NCBI RefSeq assembly: GCF_014196845.1
Contig: NZ_JACIEM010000006.1
Location: 372,001-436,000, forward strand
From: Aurantimonas endophytica
GTDB taxonomy: Bacteria; Pseudomonadota; Alphaproteobacteria; Rhizobiales; Rhizobiaceae
Direction: 5' to 3'
DNA: 64,000 bases
Shown one piece after another: positions 52,282-61,841 of the stretch. Every line of letters begins with the position of its first letter. Positions within the stretch are counted from its first letter, which is position 1. The position numbers were made by a program, and so were the translations under genes. A model generated the notes under the pieces. That model was not told the DNA's origin. It saw nothing but the letters and a program-made list of their open reading frames with translations, and searched no databases.

Positions 52282-52884
52282 ATGAACCGTGCCGCCCTCC
52301 GGATACTCATCATCGACGAGAACCGCATCCGCTCGGCGGTGATCGAGGAAGGGCTGCGCGAGGCCGGGCATGGCGAGGTCACGACGGTCCATGACGTCGG
52401 CGGGATCGCGCGGCGCATTGCCGAGATCGAGCCGGACGTCATCGTCATCGACCTGGAAAATCCCAACCGCGACATGCTGGAAAGCATGTTCCAGCTCTCC
52501 CGTGCGGTGAAGCGGCCGATCGCCATGTTCGTCGACCGCTCCGACAGCGCCTCGATCGAGGCCGCGGTGGAGGCAGGCATCTCCGCCTATGTGGTGGACG
52601 GTTTGCGCAAGGAGCGGGTCAAGCCGGTGATCGAGATGGCGATCAGCCGGTTCAACGCATTCGCCCGGATGGCGCGCGAACTCGACGAAGCGCGCACCGA
52701 GCTCGAGAGCCGTCGGCTGGTCGACCGCGCCAAGGGCATCCTGATGACGTCGCGGGGCCTGTCGGAACAGGACGCCTACGCGCTGCTGCGCAAGACGGCG
52801 ATGAACCAGAACCGCAAGATCGCCGAGATCGCGCAGAGCCTGATCACGGCGGCCGACCTGCTGCGGCCGGGAGACGAGACATGA
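52282..52884 (+). CDS. nasT: ANTAR response regulator NasT
   Basis: A 200-residue protein with an N-terminal pseudo-receiver domain (RILIIDENRIRSAVIEEGLREAG, ...PDVIVIDLENPNRDMLE) and a C-terminal ANTAR RNA-binding domain (LESRRLVDRAKGILMTSRGLSEQDAYALLRKTAMNQNRKIAEIAQSLI). NasT is the antitermination factor of nitrate assimilation: free NasT binds paired hairpins in the leader RNA, while NasS holds it inactive without nitrate. ATG 52282 has GGGAG close by and overlaps nasS by 4 bp downstream. A candidate target leader is at 54284-54404. Confidence 0.93.
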   Translation: MNRAALRILIIDENRIRSAVIEEGLREAGHGEVTTVHDVGGIARRIAEIEPDVIVIDLENPNRDMLESMFQLSRAVKRPIAMFVDRSDSASIEAAVEAGISAYVVDGLRKERVKPVIEMAISRFNAFARMARELDEARTELESRRLVDRAKGILMTSRGLSEQDAYALLRKTAMNQNRKIAEIAQSLITAADLLRPGDET

Positions 52885-54089
52885 ATGCTGGCCACCGCGT
52901 CACCGTCGGCTTCCTGCCGCTTCTCGACAGCGCGATCCTGGTGGCGGCGCGTGAGAAGGGCTTCGCCGAGGCCGAAGGCATCGAGCTGTTCCTGGTGCGC
53001 GAGAATTCCTGGGCGAGCATCCGCGACCGCCTTGCCGTCGGCCATTTCGATGCCGCGCACATGCTCGCGCCGATGCCGATCGCCTTCAATCTCGGCCTCG
53101 CCCCGCTGGCGGCGCGCACCATCGCGCCGATGGCGCTCGGACTCGGCGGCAATGCCGTCACCGTCTCGCGACGCCTGTGGGATGCGATGAAGCACCACGG
53201 CGCCGCCGACGACCTGGATCCGGCTGAGGCCGGCAGGGCGCTCCGCGCGGCAATCACCGCGCCCCCCGGCGGCGAGCGGCCGCGCTTCGCCGTGGTCCAC
53301 CCGCATTCGGGGCACAATTACGAACTGCGCTACTGGCTCGCCGCCTGCGGCATCGATCCCGATCGCGACATCGAGATCGTCATCGTGCCGCCGCCGCTGA
53401 TGCCCGATGCGCTCGCCGCGGGCCGCATCGACGGATACTGCGTCGGGGAGCCGTGGAACACCGCCGCGGCAATCCGGGGCCTGGGCCGGATCGTCACCAC
53501 CAAGTCGTTGATCTGGCGCTCCAGCCCGGAAAAGGTCCTCGGCGCCTCGGCAGAATGGGCCGATGCCAATCCGCAAGCGCTGGCCGGGCTGCTGCGCGGG
53601 CTTTACCGCTCGGCCCGGTGGTGCGGCGACGCCGCCAATCGCGCCGAACTCGCCGAACTTCTGGCGGCGCCGGCCTATATCGGCTGCCCGGTGGAGTGGC
53701 TCGTCCCGGCATTGTCCGGGCACCTGCATGCAGGGGACGGGACGGAAGTCGACGTCGCGGACTTCTTCATCCCGCAAGAGCGGGCAGCCACCTTCCCCTG
53801 GAAGAGCCATGCGCTCTGGTTCTACAGCCAGATGGTGCGGTGGGGCCAGGTTGCGGCGAGCCCGCAGAACGAGGCGATCGCCCGCGACAGCTACCGCCCG
53901 GATCTCTACCGGAGCGCGCTTCGCTCGCTCGGCGTCGCCCTGCCCGGCGCCAATGCCAAGGTCGAGGGCGGCCTGACGGAGGCCACGCCCGTAGGCTCCG
54001 CCGGCGCCAGCCTCGTCCTGGGGCCGGACGGCTTCTTCGACGGGAAGGTCTTCGATCCGGACCGGATCGCCGAGTATCTGGTGTCCTGA
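52881..54089 (+). CDS. nasS: Nitrate sensor NasS (NrtA-like)
   Basis: A 402-residue protein of the NrtA/CmpA periplasmic-binding fold but without a signal peptide: it begins MNAGHRVTVGFLPLLDSAIL. Central segments include HMLAPMPIAFNLGL, FAVVHPHSGHNYELRYWLAACG and DGYCVGEPWNTAAAI, which correspond to the nitrate-binding region of NasS. It acts in the cytoplasm, binding nitrate and releasing NasT. It overlaps nasT (ATGA), so both are made together. Confidence 0.93.
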   Translation: MNAGHRVTVGFLPLLDSAILVAAREKGFAEAEGIELFLVRENSWASIRDRLAVGHFDAAHMLAPMPIAFNLGLAPLAARTIAPMALGLGGNAVTVSRRLWDAMKHHGAADDLDPAEAGRALRAAITAPPGGERPRFAVVHPHSGHNYELRYWLAACGIDPDRDIEIVIVPPPLMPDALAAGRIDGYCVGEPWNTAAAIRGLGRIVTTKSLIWRSSPEKVLGASAEWADANPQALAGLLRGLYRSARWCGDAANRAELAELLAAPAYIGCPVEWLVPALSGHLHAGDGTEVDVADFFIPQERAATFPWKSHALWFYSQMVRWGQVAASPQNEAIARDSYRPDLYRSALRSLGVALPGANAKVEGGLTEATPVGSAGASLVLGPDGFFDGKVFDPDRIAEYLVS

Positions 54090-54131: not shown

Positions 54132-54148
54132 TGCACAAATCCTGTGCG
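54132..54148 (+). promoter_or_regulatory. Candidate NtrC binding site
   Basis: TGCAC (54132-54136), seven bases, GTGCG (54144-54148) matches the NtrC consensus TGCAC-N7-GTGCA with one mismatch. It lies about 110 bp upstream of a sigma54-type promoter, a normal distance for an NtrC enhancer site. Confidence 0.5.
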
Positions 54149-54256
54149 GCAGCGAGAGCCGGGTGAACATGTTTCGCGCAGGCCGGGAGGGCCCATCGGG
54201 AGGCAGTTTTCGATCAAGCCGCTGTTCGTGAAGGGATAATCGGATTCTCGGATATT

Positions 54257-54273
54257 TGGCACACTTCCTGCTT
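54257..54273 (+). promoter_or_regulatory. Sigma54 (RpoN) promoter of the nitrate assimilation operon
   Basis: TGGCAC (54257-54262) and CTGCTT (54268-54273) place the invariant GG and GC 10 bp apart, as required for the -24/-12 elements. Transcription should start near 54283, directly before the first ANTAR hairpin. One base (C for T) departs from the -12 consensus. Confidence 0.7.
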
Positions 54274-54283
54274 CACTTGGGGT

Positions 54284-54326
54284 GAGCCCAACGCAGGGCC
54301 CCAGTTTCGCGTCCAATGACGGGCGC
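54284..54326 (+). promoter_or_regulatory. Tandem ANTAR-type RNA hairpins (NasT binding site)
   Basis: Hairpin P1 closes on GCCC (54286-54289) / GGGC (54296-54299) with hexaloop AACGCA. Hairpin P2 is GCGTCC (54309-54314) / GGGCGC (54321-54326) with hexaloop AATGAC. Both loops have A at position 1 and G at position 4, the signature of ANTAR RNA targets, and the two are joined by a 9-nt linker. An intrinsic terminator begins 8 nt later. This is the expected NasT antitermination site. Confidence 0.8.
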
Positions 54327-54333
54327 TCCAGGC

Positions 54334-54404
54334 AAAGCCGCCGATCAAGTCAAGCGCTGCCCGCAGGTCGGGCGCGTGAGGCCTGCTCGGCGGCTTTTTT
54401 GTTT
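54334..54404 (+). terminator. Leader terminator of the nitrate operon (attenuator)
   Basis: AAAGCCGCCGA (54334-54344) pairs perfectly with TCGGCGGCTTT (54387-54397), followed by TTTGTTTT. The 42-nt loop holds a nested GCCCG-CAGGT-CGGGC stem. It lies 47 bp before the transporter start, so it would stop the operon unless NasT binds the upstream hairpins. Confidence 0.85.
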
Positions 54405-54450
54405 TCCAGCCCAGGCACGGCCGATCCCACGGCCAACGATGGAGCCAGAA

Positions 54451-55746
54451 ATGACCGACACATCCGCACATTCTTCCGCCGGCTCGGCGACGCGAGCATT
54501 GTCCATGTCCACCGTCGCCTTCACCGTCTGCTTCGCCGTCTGGACGATCTTCTCGATCATCGGCATCCGTATCAAGGAGGACCTCGGCCTCAACGAGACG
54601 CAGTTCGGCCTGCTGGTGGGAATGCCGATCCTCACCGGCTCGCTGGTTCGCATGCTGCTCGGCATCTGGACGGACCGTCTCGGCGGCCGGCTCGTCTACA
54701 CCGTGACCATGCTGGCCGCGGCCTTCGCGACGTTCCTGCTCGCCTTCGCCACGACCTACGCCCAGATGCTGGTGGCGGCGCTCGGCGTCGGCCTCGCCGG
54801 CGGCTCGTTCGCGGTCGGCGTCGCCTATGTCTCGCGCTTCTATCCCGCCAGCCGTCAGGGGACGGCGCTCGGGATCTTCGGCGTCGGCAATGTCGGTGCG
54901 GCGGTGACGAAGTTCGTCGCGCCCTTCGTGCTGCTCGCCTTTGGCTGGCAGAGCGTGGCGATGGCCTGGGCCGTGGCGCTTGCGGCCATGGCGGTGATCT
55001 TCTGGTTCGCCACAGAGGACGATCCGGTGATCCGCCAGCGGCGCCTGACCGGTGCGGGGCAGCCGCGCAGCTTCCTTGCCGAGTTCGCGCCGCTGCGCGA
55101 CCTGCGGGTCTGGCGCTTCGCCCTCTACTACTTCTTCGCCTTCGGCGCCTTCTTGGCACTCGCCCTCTGGCTGCCGCGGTACCTCATCGGCGTCTACGGC
55201 TTCGACCTCGCCACCGCCGGCATGATCGGCGCCGCCTACTCGATCCCGGCCTCAATCTTCCGCGCCTATGGCGGCGTCCTGTCCGACCGGGTGGGCGCGC
55301 GAACCGTGCTCTACTGGACCTTCACGGTGTCGGCGCTCTGCTGCGCCATCCTCGCGATCCCGGCGACGGACTACGCCGTGCAGGGGATGAACGGACCCAT
55401 CGCCTTCCACATGGCAATCGGCCCGACGGCCTTCGTCGCGGTCGCCTTCGTGCTCGGCCTGTTCATGAGCTTCGGCAAGGCGGCCGTCTACAAGCACATC
55501 CCGGTCTACTACCCGCAGAATGTCGGGGCGGTCGGAGGTCTCGTCGGCATGATCGGCGGCCTCGGCGGCTTCTTCCTGCCGATCGCCTTCGGCGCGCTCA
55601 ACGATCTCACCGGCATCTGGTCGAGCTGCTTCATGCTGCTCTTCGTCCTGGTCGCCGCGTGCCTCGCGTGGATGCATCTCGCCGTCCGGCGGATGGAGAG
55701 GCAGGCCGAAGCGCCCGCGACCTCCTTTGCTCCGGCTGCAGAATGA
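54451..55746 (+). CDS. Nitrate/nitrite transporter (NarK/NasA-type MFS)
   Basis: A 431-residue MFS protein with about 12 predicted transmembrane segments. The nitrate-transporter signature is visible in VGLAGGSFAVGVAYVSRFYP...GTALGIFGVGNVGAAVTKF and again in the second half, YYPQNVGAVGGLVGMIGGLGGFFLP. It would import nitrate for the reductases downstream. ATG 54451 has GGAG 6 bp upstream; ATG 54439 is a weaker alternative. Confidence 0.93.
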   Translation: MTDTSAHSSAGSATRALSMSTVAFTVCFAVWTIFSIIGIRIKEDLGLNETQFGLLVGMPILTGSLVRMLLGIWTDRLGGRLVYTVTMLAAAFATFLLAFATTYAQMLVAALGVGLAGGSFAVGVAYVSRFYPASRQGTALGIFGVGNVGAAVTKFVAPFVLLAFGWQSVAMAWAVALAAMAVIFWFATEDDPVIRQRRLTGAGQPRSFLAEFAPLRDLRVWRFALYYFFAFGAFLALALWLPRYLIGVYGFDLATAGMIGAAYSIPASIFRAYGGVLSDRVGARTVLYWTFTVSALCCAILAIPATDYAVQGMNGPIAFHMAIGPTAFVAVAFVLGLFMSFGKAAVYKHIPVYYPQNVGAVGGLVGMIGGLGGFFLPIAFGALNDLTGIWSSCFMLLFVLVAACLAWMHLAVRRMERQAEAPATSFAPAAE

Positions 55747-55766: not shown

Positions 55767-58217
55767 ATGACCCAGAAACTCGTCATCATCGGTAACGGCA
55801 TGGCGCCCGGCAGGATGCTCGAGCACCTGCTGGAGGCGGCGCCGGACCGCTACGACATCACGATCTTCAATGCCGAGCCGCGCGTGAACTACGACCGCAT
55901 CATGCTGTCGCCGGTCCTGTCGGGCGAGAAGAGCTTCGAGGAGATCGTGATCCATGGCGACGGCTGGTACGTCGAGAACGCCATCACGCTCTACAAGGGC
56001 CACCGCATCGTCGCGATCGATCGCGACGCCCGGACGGTGACGTCGGACCATGGCGTCACGGAGCCCTACGACAAGCTCGTCATCGCGACCGGATCGGTTC
56101 CCTTCATCATCCCGGTACCGGGCAAGGACCTGCCCGGCGTCCTGACCTATCGCGACCTCGACGACGTCAACGCCATGCTGCTGGCGGCGCAGTCACGCCA
56201 GAGCGCGGTGGTGATCGGCGGCGGGCTGCTGGGGCTCGAAGCGGCCGCCGGGCTGAAGGATCGCGGCATGGACGTGACGGTGCTGCACGTCATGCCGACG
56301 CTGATGGAGCGCCAGCTCGACCCAGCCGCCGGATACCTCTTGCAGAAGGCGGTGGAGGATCGCGGCATCAAGGTCGTGACCAAGGCGAACACCAGGCAGA
56401 TCGTCGGAAGCGGCAGGGTCGAGGGGGTGGAACTCGACGACGGTACCGTGATTTCCGCCTCCCTGGTCGTCATGGCCGTCGGCATCCGGCCGAGCGCCAC
56501 GCTGGCGGCAGAGGCCGGCCTGGCGGTGAACCGCGGAATCGTCGTCGACGATCGGATGCGCACATCCGACCCGGACATCCTCTCCCTCGGCGAATGCGCG
56601 GAGGTGGGCGGCCACGTCTACGGTCTCGTCGCGCCGCTCTACCGGATGGCCAAGGTCGCCGCCTCGACGCTGCTCGGCGGGGCGGGCGAGAGCTTCGCGC
56701 ATGTCGACACGCCCACCAAGCTGAAGGTGACCGGCATCGACCTCTACTCCGTCGGCGACTTCGCGGACGGCGACGATCGGGAGGAAATCGTCCTGCGCGA
56801 TGCATCCGCCGGCATCTACAAACGCGTGGTGCTCAAGGAAGATCGCATCATCGGGACGGTGCTGTTCGGCGAGACGTCCGATGGCGCCTGGTTCGCGGAC
56901 ATGCAGAAGCAGCAGACCGACATATCCGGGCTGCGCGACACGCTGATCTTCGGGCAGGCCTTCCAGGGGGGCGCCTCCGCGGACCCTTTGGCGGCCGTTG
57001 CGGCACTGGCGGATGATGCGGAAATCTGCGGCTGCAACGGCGTCTGCAAAGGCACCATCGTGTCGGCCATCGCGTCGAAGGGGCTGAACTCGCTCGACGG
57101 CGTCCGGGCCCATACCAAGGCGTCGGCTTCGTGCGGCACCTGTACCGGGCTCGTCGAGAAGCTGATGACGCTGACGCTGGGCGACAGCTACAATCCGGGG
57201 GCGATCCAGCCGATCTGCGGCTGCACCGAGCTCGGCCATGACGACGTCCGCCGCCTGATCAAGGCCAAGCATCTCAAGACCATTCCCGCGGTCATGCAGG
57301 AGCTGGAGTGGAAGACCTCCTGCGGCTGCGCCAAGTGCCGCCCGGCGCTCAACTACTATCTCGTGGCCGACTGGCCGGACCAGTACGCCGACGACTACCA
57401 GTCGCGCTTCGTCAACGAGCGCGTGCACGCCAACATCCAGCGGGACGGCACCTATTCGGTCGTGCCCCGCATGTGGGGCGGCATGACGTCGTCGAAGGAA
57501 CTGCGGGCCATCGCCGACGTGGTCGACAAGTTCGCCATCCCGGCGGTCAAGGTCACCGGCGGCCAGCGCATCGACATGCTCGGCATCCGCAAGGAGGACC
57601 TGCCGGCCGTCTGGGCCGATCTCGGCAAGGCCGGCTTCGTCTCCGGACAGGCCTACGCCAAGGGCCTGCGCACGGTGAAGACCTGCGTCGGCACGGACTG
57701 GTGCCGCTTCGGGACGCAGGATTCCACCGGCCTCGGCATCCGCATCGAGAAGTTCATGTGGGGCTCTTGGACGCCGGCCAAGCTGAAGATGGGCGTGTCG
57801 GGCTGCCCCCGGAACTGCGCCGAGGCCACCTGCAAGGACGTCGGGGTGATCTGCGTCGACAGTGGCTTCGAGATCCACTTCGCCGGGGCCGCCGGCCTCG
57901 ACATCAAGGGTACCGAAGTGCTCGGCCTGGTGAAGAGCGAGGACGAGGCGCTGGAGGTGATCGTCGCGCTTACGCAGATGTATCGCGAGCAGGGCCGCTA
58001 TCTCGAGCGCATCTACAAATGGGCCCGGCGCGTCGGCACCGACGAGATCCGGCGGCAGGTCCTCGATGATCGGGAGCGTCGCAGGGCCTATTACGATCGC
58101 TTCGTGTTCAGCCAGAAATTCGCCCAGGTCGACCCGTGGTCGGAGCGTGTCTCGGGCAAGGACAAGCATGAGTTCCAGCCGATGGCGGCGATCCCTCGCG
58201 CGGAGGCCGCGGAATGA
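55767..58217 (+). CDS. nirB: Assimilatory nitrite reductase, large subunit
   Basis: An 816-residue protein. It has N-terminal FAD- and NAD(P)H-binding domains (VIIGNGMAPGRMLEHLLE; VVIGGGLLGLEAAAGLKDRG), a BFD-like [2Fe-2S] domain (CGCNGVCKGTI...SCGTCTGLVEKL), a second cysteine-rich stretch (CGCAKCRPALNYYLV) and the C-terminal siroheme/[4Fe-4S] reductase part with CRFGTQDSTGLG and GCPRNCAEATCKD. It reduces nitrite to ammonium with NAD(P)H, using NirD as small subunit. Here nirD is 607 bp downstream, split off by a toxin-antitoxin pair on the other strand. Confidence 0.96.
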   Translation: MTQKLVIIGNGMAPGRMLEHLLEAAPDRYDITIFNAEPRVNYDRIMLSPVLSGEKSFEEIVIHGDGWYVENAITLYKGHRIVAIDRDARTVTSDHGVTEPYDKLVIATGSVPFIIPVPGKDLPGVLTYRDLDDVNAMLLAAQSRQSAVVIGGGLLGLEAAAGLKDRGMDVTVLHVMPTLMERQLDPAAGYLLQKAVEDRGIKVVTKANTRQIVGSGRVEGVELDDGTVISASLVVMAVGIRPSATLAAEAGLAVNRGIVVDDRMRTSDPDILSLGECAEVGGHVYGLVAPLYRMAKVAASTLLGGAGESFAHVDTPTKLKVTGIDLYSVGDFADGDDREEIVLRDASAGIYKRVVLKEDRIIGTVLFGETSDGAWFADMQKQQTDISGLRDTLIFGQAFQGGASADPLAAVAALADDAEICGCNGVCKGTIVSAIASKGLNSLDGVRAHTKASASCGTCTGLVEKLMTLTLGDSYNPGAIQPICGCTELGHDDVRRLIKAKHLKTIPAVMQELEWKTSCGCAKCRPALNYYLVADWPDQYADDYQSRFVNERVHANIQRDGTYSVVPRMWGGMTSSKELRAIADVVDKFAIPAVKVTGGQRIDMLGIRKEDLPAVWADLGKAGFVSGQAYAKGLRTVKTCVGTDWCRFGTQDSTGLGIRIEKFMWGSWTPAKLKMGVSGCPRNCAEATCKDVGVICVDSGFEIHFAGAAGLDIKGTEVLGLVKSEDEALEVIVALTQMYREQGRYLERIYKWARRVGTDEIRRQVLDDRERRRAYYDRFVFSQKFAQVDPWSERVSGKDKHEFQPMAAIPRAEAAE

Positions 58218-58221
58218 GGTC

Positions 58222-58509
58222 TCAAGCCACGTCCACGATCTCCGCGACCTTTTCCGGCATGGCGGCGATGACGCGCGCATACGCCACCGCGAAATCCGGT
58301 GGCGTCACGCGCGCCTGTTCCCAGTCCCGCAGCGTGCCGACCGGCACCTTAAAACGGCGCGCGAACTCTTCCTGGCTGAGGCCCAATCCGGTTCGCGCCA
58401 TGCGCACGATGCGCGACTTGACGGCACGCTCCATGGCATCGGGCCCGACGTCGAAATCCTCGGCATCGCCGGGATCAGCTCTGAGGACGATAGGCCTTTT
58501 CTTCGCCAC
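58222..58509 (-). CDS. HTH (XRE-type) antitoxin-like protein
   Basis: A 95-residue protein whose second half is an HTH: SRIVRMARTGLGLSQEEFARRFKVPVGTLRDWEQARVTPP. It overlaps the BrnT-like gene (58475-58750) by 35 bp at its start, downstream of it, as in toxin-first brnTA modules. Classical BrnA ends in a ribbon-helix-helix; an HTH partner of BrnT is also known. It would bind the operator and the toxin. It is antisense to the surrounding nitrate genes. Confidence 0.8.
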   Translation of the reverse strand: MAKKRPIVLRADPGDAEDFDVGPDAMERAVKSRIVRMARTGLGLSQEEFARRFKVPVGTLRDWEQARVTPPDFAVAYARVIAAMPEKVAEIVDVA

Positions 58510-58750
58510 TGTTGCTCCTCCTCACCGAAATGAAACGCGGACTGCCGTCTCTCCAGACGAAGACGGCGGTGTGAAGCCTGCCCTCGACCATGCCGATCAC
58601 CTTGTACCGCTCCTCGCCGTCCTGCGGACGGATGGAGGGAATGATCAGGTGGGCGGGATCGTCGAAAATCCTGTCGCCAAACGCGAGCGAGCATCCGTGT
58701 TTCGCCCGGTTCGCGGCGTCTTTCCTGACATCGTAGCGTTGGCTACTCAC
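58475..58750 (-). CDS. brnT: BrnT family toxin
   Basis: A 91-residue BrnT-like protein: YDVRKDAANRAKHGCSLAFGDRIFDDPAHLI, then ERYKVIGMVEGRLHTAVFVWRDGSPRFISVRRSNSGEEKAY. BrnT is a RelE-fold ribonuclease toxin. The start is a GTG (58750). It and its antitoxin lie on the minus strand between nirB and nirD, an unusual place. Confidence 0.85.
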   Translation of the reverse strand: MSSQRYDVRKDAANRAKHGCSLAFGDRIFDDPAHLIIPSIRPQDGEERYKVIGMVEGRLHTAVFVWRDGSPRFISVRRSNSGEEKAYRPQS

Positions 58751-58824: not shown

Positions 58825-59163
58825 ATGACCACTACTCTATGGCACGACATCGGCACGATCGACGACATCCCTGTCCGGGGCGCGCGCTGCGTCGCCACGC
58901 CTCAGGGTCGCATCGGCGTGTTCCGGACCGCCGACGACAGGGTCTACGCGATCGACGACCACTGCCCGCACCGTGGCGGCCCGCTCAGCGCGGGGATCGT
59001 CCACGGCGCCTCGGTGACCTGTCCGTTGCACAACTGGGTGTTCTCGCTCGAGACCGGCAAGGCGCAGGGCGCGGACGAGGGTGCGGTCCGGACCATCCCC
59101 GTCCGGCTGGTCGGACGGCGCATCTCGCTCGGCCTCGAGCATGCCCTGATGGCGGCGGAATGA
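58825..59163 (+). CDS. nirD: Nitrite reductase small subunit NirD
   Basis: A 112-residue Rieske-type protein with the two [2Fe-2S] motifs CPHRGG and CPLHNWVF. It is the small subunit of NADH-dependent assimilatory nitrite reductase. ATG 58825 follows a G-rich stretch. It overlaps the nitrate reductase gene by 4 bp (ATGA). Confidence 0.93.
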   Translation: MTTTLWHDIGTIDDIPVRGARCVATPQGRIGVFRTADDRVYAIDDHCPHRGGPLSAGIVHGASVTCPLHNWVFSLETGKAQGADEGAVRTIPVRLVGRRISLGLEHALMAAE

Positions 59164-61841
59164 CGGGGATCCCGGCAACGCCGGCGGCCGAGGCGAGGAC
59201 GACCTGCCCCTATTGCGGGGTGGGTTGCGGCGTGCTGGCGCGCGTCGCCGCGGACGGCGAGGTGACCGTCCGCGGCGATCCGGATCACCCGGCGAATTTC
59301 GGCAGGCTGTGCTCCAAGGGCGCGGCACTGGGCGAGACGACGGGACACGACGGCCGGCTGCTCGCACCCGAGATCGGCGGCCGCGCTGCATCGTGGAACG
59401 CGGCGCTCGACGTGGTCGCCAGGCGCTTTCGCGAGACGATCGACCGCCACGGGCCGGATTCGGTCGCGTTCTACGTTTCCGGCCAGTTGCTGACCGAGGA
59501 CTACTATGTCGCCAACAAGCTGATGAAGGGCTTCATCGGCTCCGGCAATATCGACACCAATTCGCGGCTCTGCATGGCTTCGTCCGTGGCAGGCCACCGG
59601 CGCGCCTTCGGCGAGGACATCGTGCCGGGGATCTATGCCGATCTGGAGGAGGCCGACCTCGTCGTCCTGACCGGTTCCAATGCGGCCTGGTGCCATCCGG
59701 TGCTCTATCAGCGGCTGCTGGCGGCCCGCGAGGAACGCGGCACGCGGATCGTTGTGGTCGACCCGCGGCGGACCGCGACGGCGGACGAATGCGACCTGCA
59801 TCTGGCGATCGAGCCGGGCACCGACGTGCTGCTCTTCAACGGTCTGCTGGCCCATATCGCTGAGGGCCGAGCGCTCGACCGCGATTTCGTTGCCAGCGCC
59901 ACGAGCGGCTTTGCCGAAGCCGTCGCGGCGGCCAGCGCCGAAGCATCCTCGCCGGCGGATGTCGCGGCGGGCTGCGGCCTGGCCGAAGCGGATGTGCGGC
60001 TCTTCTACGAGCTGTTCGCCGCGACCGAGCGGAGCGTCACGGTCTACAGCCAGGGCGTCAACCAGTCCGCCCACGGCACCGACAAGGTCAATGCCATCAT
60101 CAACTGCCATCTGGCGACAGGCCGCATCGGGCGGCCCGGCATGGGTCCGTTTTCGGTGACCGGGCAGCCCAACGCCATGGGCGGAAGGGAGGTCGGCGGG
60201 CTCGCCAACCAGCTGGCGGCGCATATGGGCTTCGAGCAGCCCGCCGACGTGGACCGTGTCGGGCGCTTCTGGAACGCGGCCGGCATCGCGCGGCATGCCG
60301 GGCTCAAGGCCGTCGACATGTTCCGGGCCGCCGGCGACGGCCGCGTCAAGGCGTTGTGGATCATGGGGACCAACCCCGCCGTCTCGATGCCGGATGCCGG
60401 CCGCGTGCGCGCCGCCCTGAAGGCCTGCGAATTCGTCGTCGTCTCGGACGTGACCCGCACCGACACCACGCTCCATGCCGACGTCCTGCTGCCGGCGGCC
60501 GCATGGGGCGAGAAGAGCGGAACCGTCACCAATTCGGAGCGCCGCCTGTCGCGCCAGCGCGCCTTCCTGCAGCCGGCGGGCAGCGCACGCGCCGACTGGC
60601 GCATCATCTGCGACGTGGCGCGGCGCATGGGCTACGCGGATGCCTTTGCCTTTGAAGGACCGGCCGCCATCTTCCGCGAACACGCGGCGCTCTCCGCCTA
60701 CGAGAATGACGGCGAACGGCTGTTCGATATCGGTGCCCTCGCTGGTCTGGACGACGCCGGCTACGAGCGCTTCGAGCCGGCCTTCTGGCCGCAGCAGCCG
60801 GGCGAAGGGGCCGGTCGTCTGCTCGGGGACGGGCGCTTTCCGACCGCCGACGGGCGCGCGCGTTTCGTCGCGGTGCGCCAGGAGGGTGTCGCGCTCGCCG
60901 TGGACGGCCAGCGCCCCATCGCGCTGAACACCGGACGCTCGCGCGACCAGTGGCACACGATGACGCGGACCGGCAGGGTCCCGCGGCTGATGGCCAATAC
61001 GCCGGAGCCGACGCTGGAGATCGCGCCGCAGGACGCTCGGCGCGAGGGACTGGCCGATGGCGACCTCGCGCATGTGTCGAGCCGATACGGCTTCGTGCGT
61101 GCCAAGGTCAGCATCTCGGCCCGCCAGAAGCCCGGCAGCGCGTTCCTGCCGATGCACTGGAGCGGCCAGTTCGCCGCCAATGCCGGGGCCGGATCCCTGG
61201 CGACGCCGACGACCGATCCGTTTTCGGGCCAGCCGGAGCTGAAGAACGTGCCGGTGCGCATCGTTCGCGAGCCCGTCGCCTGGACCGGCGTCCTGATGAC
61301 CCGGCGCGACCTGCGCCCCACCGGCTTCGTCCACTGGAGCCGATGCAAGGTCGAAGGCGGCTGGGTCTACGAGCTCTGCGGCACGGAAACCGGCGGCCAG
61401 GGAATCCTGCTGTCGCGGCAGTTTCTGAACGGCTTCTCTCGCGAACAGCTGGTCGAGTACACCGACAGGCGCGGCCTTGCCTATCGTGCCGCCGCGGTGG
61501 ATGCCGACGGGGCGCTCGCCGAGGCGCTGCTCGTGGCACCGCCGGGGCAACTGCCGCCGCGCGACTGGCTGGTTTCGCTGCTCGGGTCGCGCGCGCCGCT
61601 CGGCCCGGCCGACCGCATGGCGCTCCTGTCCGGCCGCTCGCCGTCGCCGATGCCGGCCCGAGGCCGCATCGTCTGCTCCTGCTTCAATGTCGGGATCAAC
61701 CAGATCGCCGCCGCGGTCGCCCGCGGCCGCCACAGCGTCGCGCTGATCGGCGAAGATCTGCGCGCCGGCACCAATTGCGGCTCCTGCCGCAGCGAGATCA
61801 GCCAGATCATCGAAGGCACCCGCCTGGCGGCCGCCGAGTGA
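59160..61841 (+). CDS. nasA: Assimilatory nitrate reductase, catalytic subunit
   Basis: An 893-residue molybdopterin (bis-MGD) oxidoreductase. The N-terminal [4Fe-4S] motif is CPYCGVGCGVL...RLCSKG. The Mo-domain contains SRLCMASSVAGHRRAFG and SQGVNQSAHGTDKVNAIINCHLATG. A C-terminal [2Fe-2S] (BFD-like) domain has CSCFNVGINQIAAAV and GTNCGSCRSE. There is no TAT signal, so it is cytoplasmic and assimilatory. It is the last gene of the operon (transporter, nirB, nirD, nasA). A siroheme synthase gene, often next in such operons, is absent here. Confidence 0.94.
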   Translation: MTGIPATPAAEARTTCPYCGVGCGVLARVAADGEVTVRGDPDHPANFGRLCSKGAALGETTGHDGRLLAPEIGGRAASWNAALDVVARRFRETIDRHGPDSVAFYVSGQLLTEDYYVANKLMKGFIGSGNIDTNSRLCMASSVAGHRRAFGEDIVPGIYADLEEADLVVLTGSNAAWCHPVLYQRLLAAREERGTRIVVVDPRRTATADECDLHLAIEPGTDVLLFNGLLAHIAEGRALDRDFVASATSGFAEAVAAASAEASSPADVAAGCGLAEADVRLFYELFAATERSVTVYSQGVNQSAHGTDKVNAIINCHLATGRIGRPGMGPFSVTGQPNAMGGREVGGLANQLAAHMGFEQPADVDRVGRFWNAAGIARHAGLKAVDMFRAAGDGRVKALWIMGTNPAVSMPDAGRVRAALKACEFVVVSDVTRTDTTLHADVLLPAAAWGEKSGTVTNSERRLSRQRAFLQPAGSARADWRIICDVARRMGYADAFAFEGPAAIFREHAALSAYENDGERLFDIGALAGLDDAGYERFEPAFWPQQPGEGAGRLLGDGRFPTADGRARFVAVRQEGVALAVDGQRPIALNTGRSRDQWHTMTRTGRVPRLMANTPEPTLEIAPQDARREGLADGDLAHVSSRYGFVRAKVSISARQKPGSAFLPMHWSGQFAANAGAGSLATPTTDPFSGQPELKNVPVRIVREPVAWTGVLMTRRDLRPTGFVHWSRCKVEGGWVYELCGTETGGQGILLSRQFLNGFSREQLVEYTDRRGLAYRAAAVDADGALAEALLVAPPGQLPPRDWLVSLLGSRAPLGPADRMALLSGRSPSPMPARGRIVCSCFNVGINQIAAAVARGRHSVALIGEDLRAGTNCGSCRSEISQIIEGTRLAAAE

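Follow-up and report, generated by a model that had tools for sequence, protein, structure and literature searches.

A probable NasT-controlled attenuator between nasTS and narK-nirBD-nasA in Aurantimonas endophytica, with a possible extra hexaloop hairpin at its 5′ end

The window, i.e. the whole 64,000-nt stretch of DNA analysed here, comes from a 5.04-Mb genome in 9 contigs. On its + strand nasT and nasS are followed by an intergenic leader and then by genes for a NarK-type transporter, NirB, NirD and an assimilatory nitrate reductase-like protein. The leader hairpins are called P0, P1 and P2; P0 and P1 are the two that an earlier note on this DNA had named P1 and P2, and our P2 is newly found. 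A1/G4 denotes a hexaloop with A at position 1 and G at position 4. The features are as follows.

52282..52884, + strand: nasT, with a receiver-like domain and a C-terminal ANTAR RNA-binding domain (from the ORF frame, the ATG position being set by counting)
52881..54089, + strand: nasS, NMT1-like nitrate/nitrite sensor, overlapping the nasT stop (Pfam NMT1_2, 6.1e-74)
54132..54147, + strand: NtrC-type enhancer palindrome TGCAC-N7-GTGC, centred ∼143 nt upstream of the predicted +1
54256..54272, + strand: sigma54-like −24/−12 promoter TTGGCACACTTCCTGCT, occurring once on the + strand
54286..54299, + strand: P0 hairpin GCCC-AACGCA-GGGC, A1/G4 hexaloop, 5′-terminal on the predicted sigma54 transcript
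54309..54326, + strand: predicted P1 ANTAR hairpin GCGUCC-AAUGAC-GGGCGC, A1/G4 hexaloop, C:G closing pair
54331..54342, + strand: predicted P2 ANTAR antiterminator hairpin GGC-AAAGCC-GCC, A1/G4, C:G closing pair, 3 bp
54334..54397, + strand: intrinsic terminator, 11-bp arms 54334-54344/54387-54397 with an inner helix, T6 at 54395-54400
54451..55746, + strand: NarK-type nitrate/nitrite MFS transporter, operon gene 1 (TIGR00886, 5.2e-62, below the curated cut-off)
55767..58217, + strand: nirB, nitrite reductase large subunit (TIGR02374, 1.1e-270, above cut-off)
58825..59163, + strand: nirD, nitrite reductase small subunit (TIGR02378, 1.6e-27, above cut-off)
59160..61841, + strand: assimilatory nitrate reductase-like molybdopterin oxidoreductase with a BFD [2Fe-2S] domain

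The position of nasT and nasS just upstream of the leader, as the earlier note had it, agrees with the ORFs and with Pfam, which detected both NasT domains at 52285-52881 (ANTAR, 2.3e-21; Response_reg, 7.1e-9); the name nasS was given from position and similarity. The product of 59160..61841 matched NasA/NasC models and a higher-scoring formate dehydrogenase model, all below curated cut-offs, and its nitrate reductase role is taken from operon membership. Two marks of a NasST attenuator are thus present: a nasT (ANTAR) gene adjoining a nasS (NMT1-like) gene, and nitrate/nitrite assimilation genes downstream.

Antisense between nirB and nirD lie two genes, for a BrnT-type toxin (58475-58750, − strand; Pfam 1.5e-19) and for an HTH antitoxin-like protein (58222-58509, − strand). 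In L320, the nearest relative, 12 nt separate the nirB match from the nirD match, and a search for a BrnT/HTH match gave none; the gene pair therefore looks inserted into the nitrate operon. Elsewhere in the genome there are two more ANTAR matches, L003 (contig C2) and L002 (contig C3), one of which is an AmiR-like protein (AmiR_N + ANTAR).

P0, P1, the terminator arms and the sigma54-like box were each found once, on the + strand. The linkers are 9 nt (P0-P1) and 4 nt (P1-P2). Both hairpins named earlier and the 11-bp terminator with its T-run were recovered, with the correction that the leader has three A1/G4 hexaloops and not two. The loop and 3′ arm of P2 (54334-54342) make up nine of the 11 bases of the terminator 5′ arm, counted from its 5′ end; since these bases are common to both, P2 and the terminator are mutually exclusive. 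Folding of 54250-54415 predicted P0, P1 and the terminator (z −2.46 versus shuffles), and for a transcript ending at 54345 all three hairpins were predicted, with pair probabilities of 0.87-0.99. For the full-length leader the terminator form has −61.1 kcal/mol versus −47.0 with P2 forced; forcing P0, P1 and P2 together gave −45.3.

Pairs of A1/G4 C:G-closed hexaloops alone are not rare: the window has three on the + strand and none on the − strand, and shuffled windows have 0.75 each (both strands). Pairs in which the second hairpin is in addition the start of a terminator of at least 8 bp number one in the window and none in 20 shuffled windows. P1 and P2 combine A1/G4 hexaloops, C:G closure, a P2 stem of at least 3 bp and overlap with the terminator; the 3-bp stem of P2 was counted against the attenuator reading. 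Their 4-nt linker falls outside the 5-12 nt range of eut leaders, and 4 nt is the mode in the family (94/194). By these sequence-testable criteria the P1/P2 leader is a predicted ANTAR target RNA, borderline in linker length.

The layout is that of NasR-nasF, EutV-eut and AmiR-amiE, with two A1/G4 hexaloop hairpins of which P2 overlaps the terminator proximal stem; according to PMC3369936 and PMC3369931, the P2 distal stem in the nasF, eut and amiE leaders is part of that stem. The 4-nt linker differs from the 5-12 nt in Enterococcus faecalis eut leaders, where shortening to 3 nt hurt induction (PMC3369931). The C:G closing pairs are those of the NasR SELEX consensus in PMC7496416, which also places the two-hairpin motif in NasT systems. 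In Paracoccus denitrificans nitrate dissociates NasS-NasT and NasT binds nasA leader RNA, as PMC3795266 and PMC5424462 describe; there, too, nasTS lies directly upstream, with a structured leader between nasS and nasA. For Paracoccus nasA and Bradyrhizobium nosR PMC3795266, PMC5424462 and PMC6759348 name a hairpin I (NasT region), needed for expression, and a hairpin II (attenuation). What differs in the window is that predicted P1 and P2 hairpins are resolved and preceded by a 5′-terminal hairpin.

Loci were also selected by NasS protein only (60 relatives, 30 loci fetched), which makes a set free of motif bias. The strict A1/G4 pair lies downstream of nasS in 17 of the 30; in L010 and L014 the pair is present with G1 in one loop. 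Within 700 nt the strict pair is absent in 13 of the 30, and 11 have no pair at all, G1 forms included; among loci without a pair, L031-L033 have weaker NasS matches (38-39% identity). After loci whose NasS was already represented by another locus were dropped, 22 NasS-selected loci at ≥50% identity were left, and on 4 of these the later leader-parsing script failed. Downstream of nasS in L023, L025 and L026 we noticed by eye a long-linker variant: P1, an inserted hairpin and then a hairpin of GAC-ANNGAC-GTC type.

Eleven leaders carrying the pair, from this NasS-selected set, were aligned (alignment A1) and model R1 was built from them. The covariation score of this alignment beats 498 of 500 shuffles as well as slid versions. 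In this test every double change lies within P1, P2 contributing none, and further pair types are no more numerous than in shuffles, 80 of 500 of which reach the observed count. A covariance model from nine other leaders, from which the window and the nearest relative had been left out, found P1+P2 of the window at 58.4 bits (E 5.5e-12); the next match had 17.5 bits. At L042 on C3, where a 17.5-bit match lies close to a second ANTAR gene, inspection by eye showed no features of a leader. The best of 33 further R1 matches in the own genome, with 25.9 bits on C3, was put down to chance because its P1 loop, CGCCGG, is not A1/G4. The sigma54+CCAANGNNGGG pattern matched the own genome at this locus only.

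With the own genome included in each count, R1 has a site at E ≤ 0.01 in 74/397 genomes of the order and, at E ≤ 0.001, in 83/297 family genomes and 7/385 class genomes. A pattern scan of named genomes gave matches in Mesorhizobium, Devosia, Nitratireductor, Hyphomicrobium, Reyranella and others (80 of the 116 stretches listed). Two Acidovorax pattern matches (L144, L191) fell short of the 1e-4 threshold with R1, and a Paracoccus one (L127) had no terminator by script. From the 79-match set an incomplete stretch (L158) was left out. The R1 and pattern leaders, 225 in number, were reduced to 204 by removing exact duplicates and those with <95 nt upstream, and to 195 by leaving out nine by judgement: L035, L106, L109, L111, L232 and L233 (coding-like or with no matching terminator) and L097, L100 and L101 (T-run terminator present, atypical P1 loops; in L100 and L101 R1 also matches the other strand).

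P1/P2 frequencies in the 195 leaders are biased, as R1 and the pattern select the motif and the parser needs paired stems. With this in mind, G4 is present in P1 and P2 loops of 194/194 parsed leaders, A1 in 190 P1 loops and in 188 P2 loops (G in the other six). An overlapping terminator was found in 190/194, or 186/195 under a stricter T-run rule. The evidence for P2 covariation comes from this larger, model-selected set: triplets at the outer P2 pair (P2 5′ arm/P2 3′ arm/terminator 3′ arm) are G-C-G in 168 leaders, A-T-A in 12 and C-G-C in 2, and both the P2 and the terminator pair are kept there in 184/190. Such triple covariation fits use of both folds, P2 and terminator, and would otherwise be hard to explain. 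In 162/195 leaders a NasS-like gene with the same orientation lies upstream within 1.6 kb. Some genomes carry two P1/P2 leader copies ∼3.5-4.7 kb apart (Mesorhizobium L139, L147, L150 and L171; also G040, G257 and G344), which suggests two attenuated units within one nitrate cluster.

The box TTGGCACACTTCCTGCT is presumably a sigma54 site, judged by the sigma54 consensus. It puts the predicted +1 at ∼54283 (counted from the −12 C at 54271), just 5′ of P0. The sigma54 promoter suggested earlier holds up: besides the box at 54256-54272, a site was recognized in 166/195 leaders. The companion claim of an unusually short leader does not. The window leader is ∼120 nt long; the distance from +1 to P1 is 5-38 nt in the 166 leaders and 23-28 nt in 121 of them, so the 26 nt of the window is ordinary.

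We take the palindrome at 54132..54147 to be an NtrC-type site, again by the consensus. In the window alone 0.46 such sites are expected by chance, i.e. the site is not improbable, and the assignment is made because of position and conservation rather than single-site rarity: with ≤2 mismatches, a site lies 60-150 nt upstream of −24 in 117/156 leaders versus 4/156 control stretches, most commonly at 115-119 nt (77/117). The combination of P1+P2 pair, sigma54 promoter, NtrC-type site and overlapping terminator thus recurs in many genomes of the order.

Conservation of the sigma54 and NtrC-type sites would also suit a simpler arrangement, in which the hairpin and T-run form an end-of-operon terminator of nasTS and narK-nirBD-nasA is controlled by NtrC/sigma54 initiation only. 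We consider this very improbable. The promoter is upstream of the terminator, so that a sigma54 transcript must cross it, and triple covariation ties the terminator arm to P2.

Which two hairpins form the NasT pair was the point at which the earlier note needed revision. In its scheme NasT would bind P0 (54286-54299) and P1 (54309-54326) and so block the terminator 8 nt further on, 54331-54342 being terminator only. Both hairpins exist, each with a more favourable energy than P2 (−7.1 and −10.6 versus −4.2 kcal/mol), and their 9-nt linker is within the eut range. Against this, neither P0 nor P1 overlaps the terminator, which leaves the scheme without a step that blocks it; loops at the P0 position are of 4 nt (95/195) or 5 nt (40/195) in 135/195 folds; leaders without room for P0 keep P1 and P2 (e.g. 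L057, L060 and L107, by eye); and the P2 loop has the A1 and G4 counts given above, in a set biased towards the motif. In the nearest relative (87% NasS identity) the P1 loop keeps A1/G4 (AACGAG), and the P0 loop, GACGTT, has lost A1 and kept G4; the check on loop conservation in close relatives that the earlier note had set itself thus gives a mixed result. We give the P0+P1 scheme hardly any credence and discarded this pair as the ANTAR unit: the conserved pair is P1+P2, with P2 overlapping the terminator. The general regulatory logic proposed earlier still stands, as does a predicted NasT-controlled attenuator in front of the nitrate operon, adjoining nasT/nasS and with narK-nirBD-nasA downstream.

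We regard it as very probable that the leader is a nitrogen- and nitrate-gated NasT/ANTAR attenuator between nasTS and narK-nirBD-nasA. Under nitrogen limitation NtrC would activate RNA polymerase-sigma54 at 54256-54272, with a start at ∼54283, and P0, P1 and P2 would fold during emergence from the polymerase. With no nitrate, NasS would hold NasT, the downstream arm would displace P2, and the 11-bp terminator would stop transcription at ∼54400. With nitrate or nitrite, NasS would release NasT, which would read the A1/G4 hexaloops of P1 and P2 and keep P2 closed; because the P2 loop and 3′ arm begin the terminator 5′ arm, the terminator could not form and narK-nirBD-nasA would be transcribed. 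The elements, their conservation, the P2/terminator exclusion, the covariation and the gene order are observed in the sequence. Dissociation of NasS-NasT by nitrate and ANTAR binding to A1/G4 pairs are carried over from other species and presumed to apply here.

Two reports bear on how NasT would act. A Paracoccus study proposes added translational control (PMC5424462), and NasT might likewise act on translation or RNA decay instead of termination. The hairpins of the leader, though, end ∼50 nt short of the narK start codon and so leave the narK ribosome-binding region uncovered, and P2 overlaps the terminator; of the readings considered we find this one the least credible. In Bradyrhizobium, as described in PMC6759348, narK-bjgb-flp has predicted NasT hairpins, yet its expression rises in a nasT mutant, so that hairpins are no guarantee of activation.

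The Rfam gathering-score scan gave no match in the window; permissive matches to chrB-a, chrB-b and HSR-omega (E 2.5-4.7) were taken as chance. Rfam RF03032, narK RNA, reached 15.3 bits (E 0.89) on the window, below its gathering score of 43.2, and the window is not a member. The RF03032 consensus has a sigma54-like −24/−12 box, a CCAACGnnGG hairpin and CGACAAAGACGUCG, i.e. sigma54 + P1 + P2; the model has no P0 and marks one stem only. In the phylum RF03032 matched 15/299 genomes, at 15 loci (L304-L318), of which the clearest (L304-L313, by eye) have a sigma54-like box, a CCAACGGCGG-type P1 and a GACAAAGACGTC-type P2 that leads into a terminator. Judged by its sequence layout, narK RNA looks like an ANTAR leader distantly related to the switch described here; the link is drawn from layout and not from score, model R2 giving 10-18 bits only on the RF03032 loci. 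We found no literature joining ANTAR, narK and Rfam, and the terms ‘narK RNA’ and ‘narK motif’ were not found among the literature matches listed.

P0 was part of no leader selection criterion (P0 of L148 was scored by hand, the terminator of this leader having failed the script). A 5′-end hairpin is present in 188/195 minimum-energy folds (mean z −1.68 over 159). A C:G-closed hexaloop on a stem of ≥4 bp can be drawn at P0 in 62/195 leaders, 18 of them A1/G4; the background is 8.1% of 16,674 like hairpins in the same loci. Per leader this excess has a binomial p of 1.3e-6; collapsed by similarity, it amounts to 6/37 cluster-type entries (p 0.075). Eleven of the 18 formal A1/G4 leaders are inside the NasS clade of the window (for two, the genome is entered under a different locus id); those outside are L079, L141, L157, L163, L167, L230 and L289.

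The clade has 20 members and weak support (67), its inner clades of 8 and 9 having 94 and 80. True hexaloops, defined for all leaders as loops not closable by G-C at positions 1/6, number 16 in the clade, with G4 in 15 and A1+G4 in 11; outside it there are 18 among 129, six with G4 and one with A1/G4. If the 1/6 rule is dropped, G4 is found in 16/18 inside and 9/27 outside. Clade member L199 (CGTAAA) was counted as a hexaloop with neither A1 nor G4. Parsimony of the P0 loop on the NasS tree requires one step at position 4 and 5-8 at each of the other five positions, with five at position 1. Within the clade G4 of P0 looks held and A1 partly so. In family f6 (L014, L051, L053, L072, L077, L083, L092 and L096) a conserved CTCCTCCCAAGACG was seen by eye near the P0 place, just 5′ of P1.

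These observations pull in two directions. By a slight tilt we favour P0 as a mere 5′-end hairpin, with a role in start-site folding or RNA stability and no contact with NasT, its A1/G4 arising by chance in the lineage. By the C:G-closed, ≥4-bp rule 177/195 leaders have no A1/G4 hexaloop at P0; the commonest P0 tetraloops are UUCG, GAAA, CCAA, GCAA and CUCG; the collapsed excess is that of p 0.075; and the nearest relative has G1 and L199 lacks both bases. Chance in the lineage is harder to square with the clade itself, where hexaloops occur in 16 of 20 with a single step at position 4 against 5-8 elsewhere in the loop, with the scarcity of hexaloops and of G4 outside it, and with the share of A1/G4 over background.

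Somewhat less probable, and put forward tentatively, is a three-hairpin ANTAR leader in which the P0 of the clade is an extra NasT-recognized hexaloop at the 5′ end of the sigma54 transcript. P0 may then be a weaker third NasT site, or a recruitment site, in this lineage. Known ANTAR dual-hairpin leaders differ from this clade with its third hexaloop at the transcript 5′ end (A1/G4 in the window), and we found no description of a third or additional hairpin in the literature on ANTAR proteins. A EutV structural study (PMC8934654) proposes successive binding, to a recruitment hairpin and then to the antitermination hairpin; given that proposal, a third upstream hairpin fits as an extra recruitment site. 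If the three-hairpin reading is true, P0 could load NasT on the emerging RNA prior to the formation of P1 and P2, NasT would be passed from P0 by way of P1 to P2 in advance of the terminator, and the EutV model would be extended.

The core attenuator is of an already-known type; new are the corrected hairpin anatomy and, as a suggestive extra, the three-hairpin arrangement. The predicted P1/P2 assignment gives the widespread nitrate leaders of the order a place on the ANTAR map, identifies their working hairpin and suggests that Rfam narK RNA belongs to this kind of switch. Should P0 prove a working third site, these leaders would offer a natural test between one ANTAR dimer bridging two hairpins and dimers that move on, first to a recruitment hairpin and then to the antiterminator.
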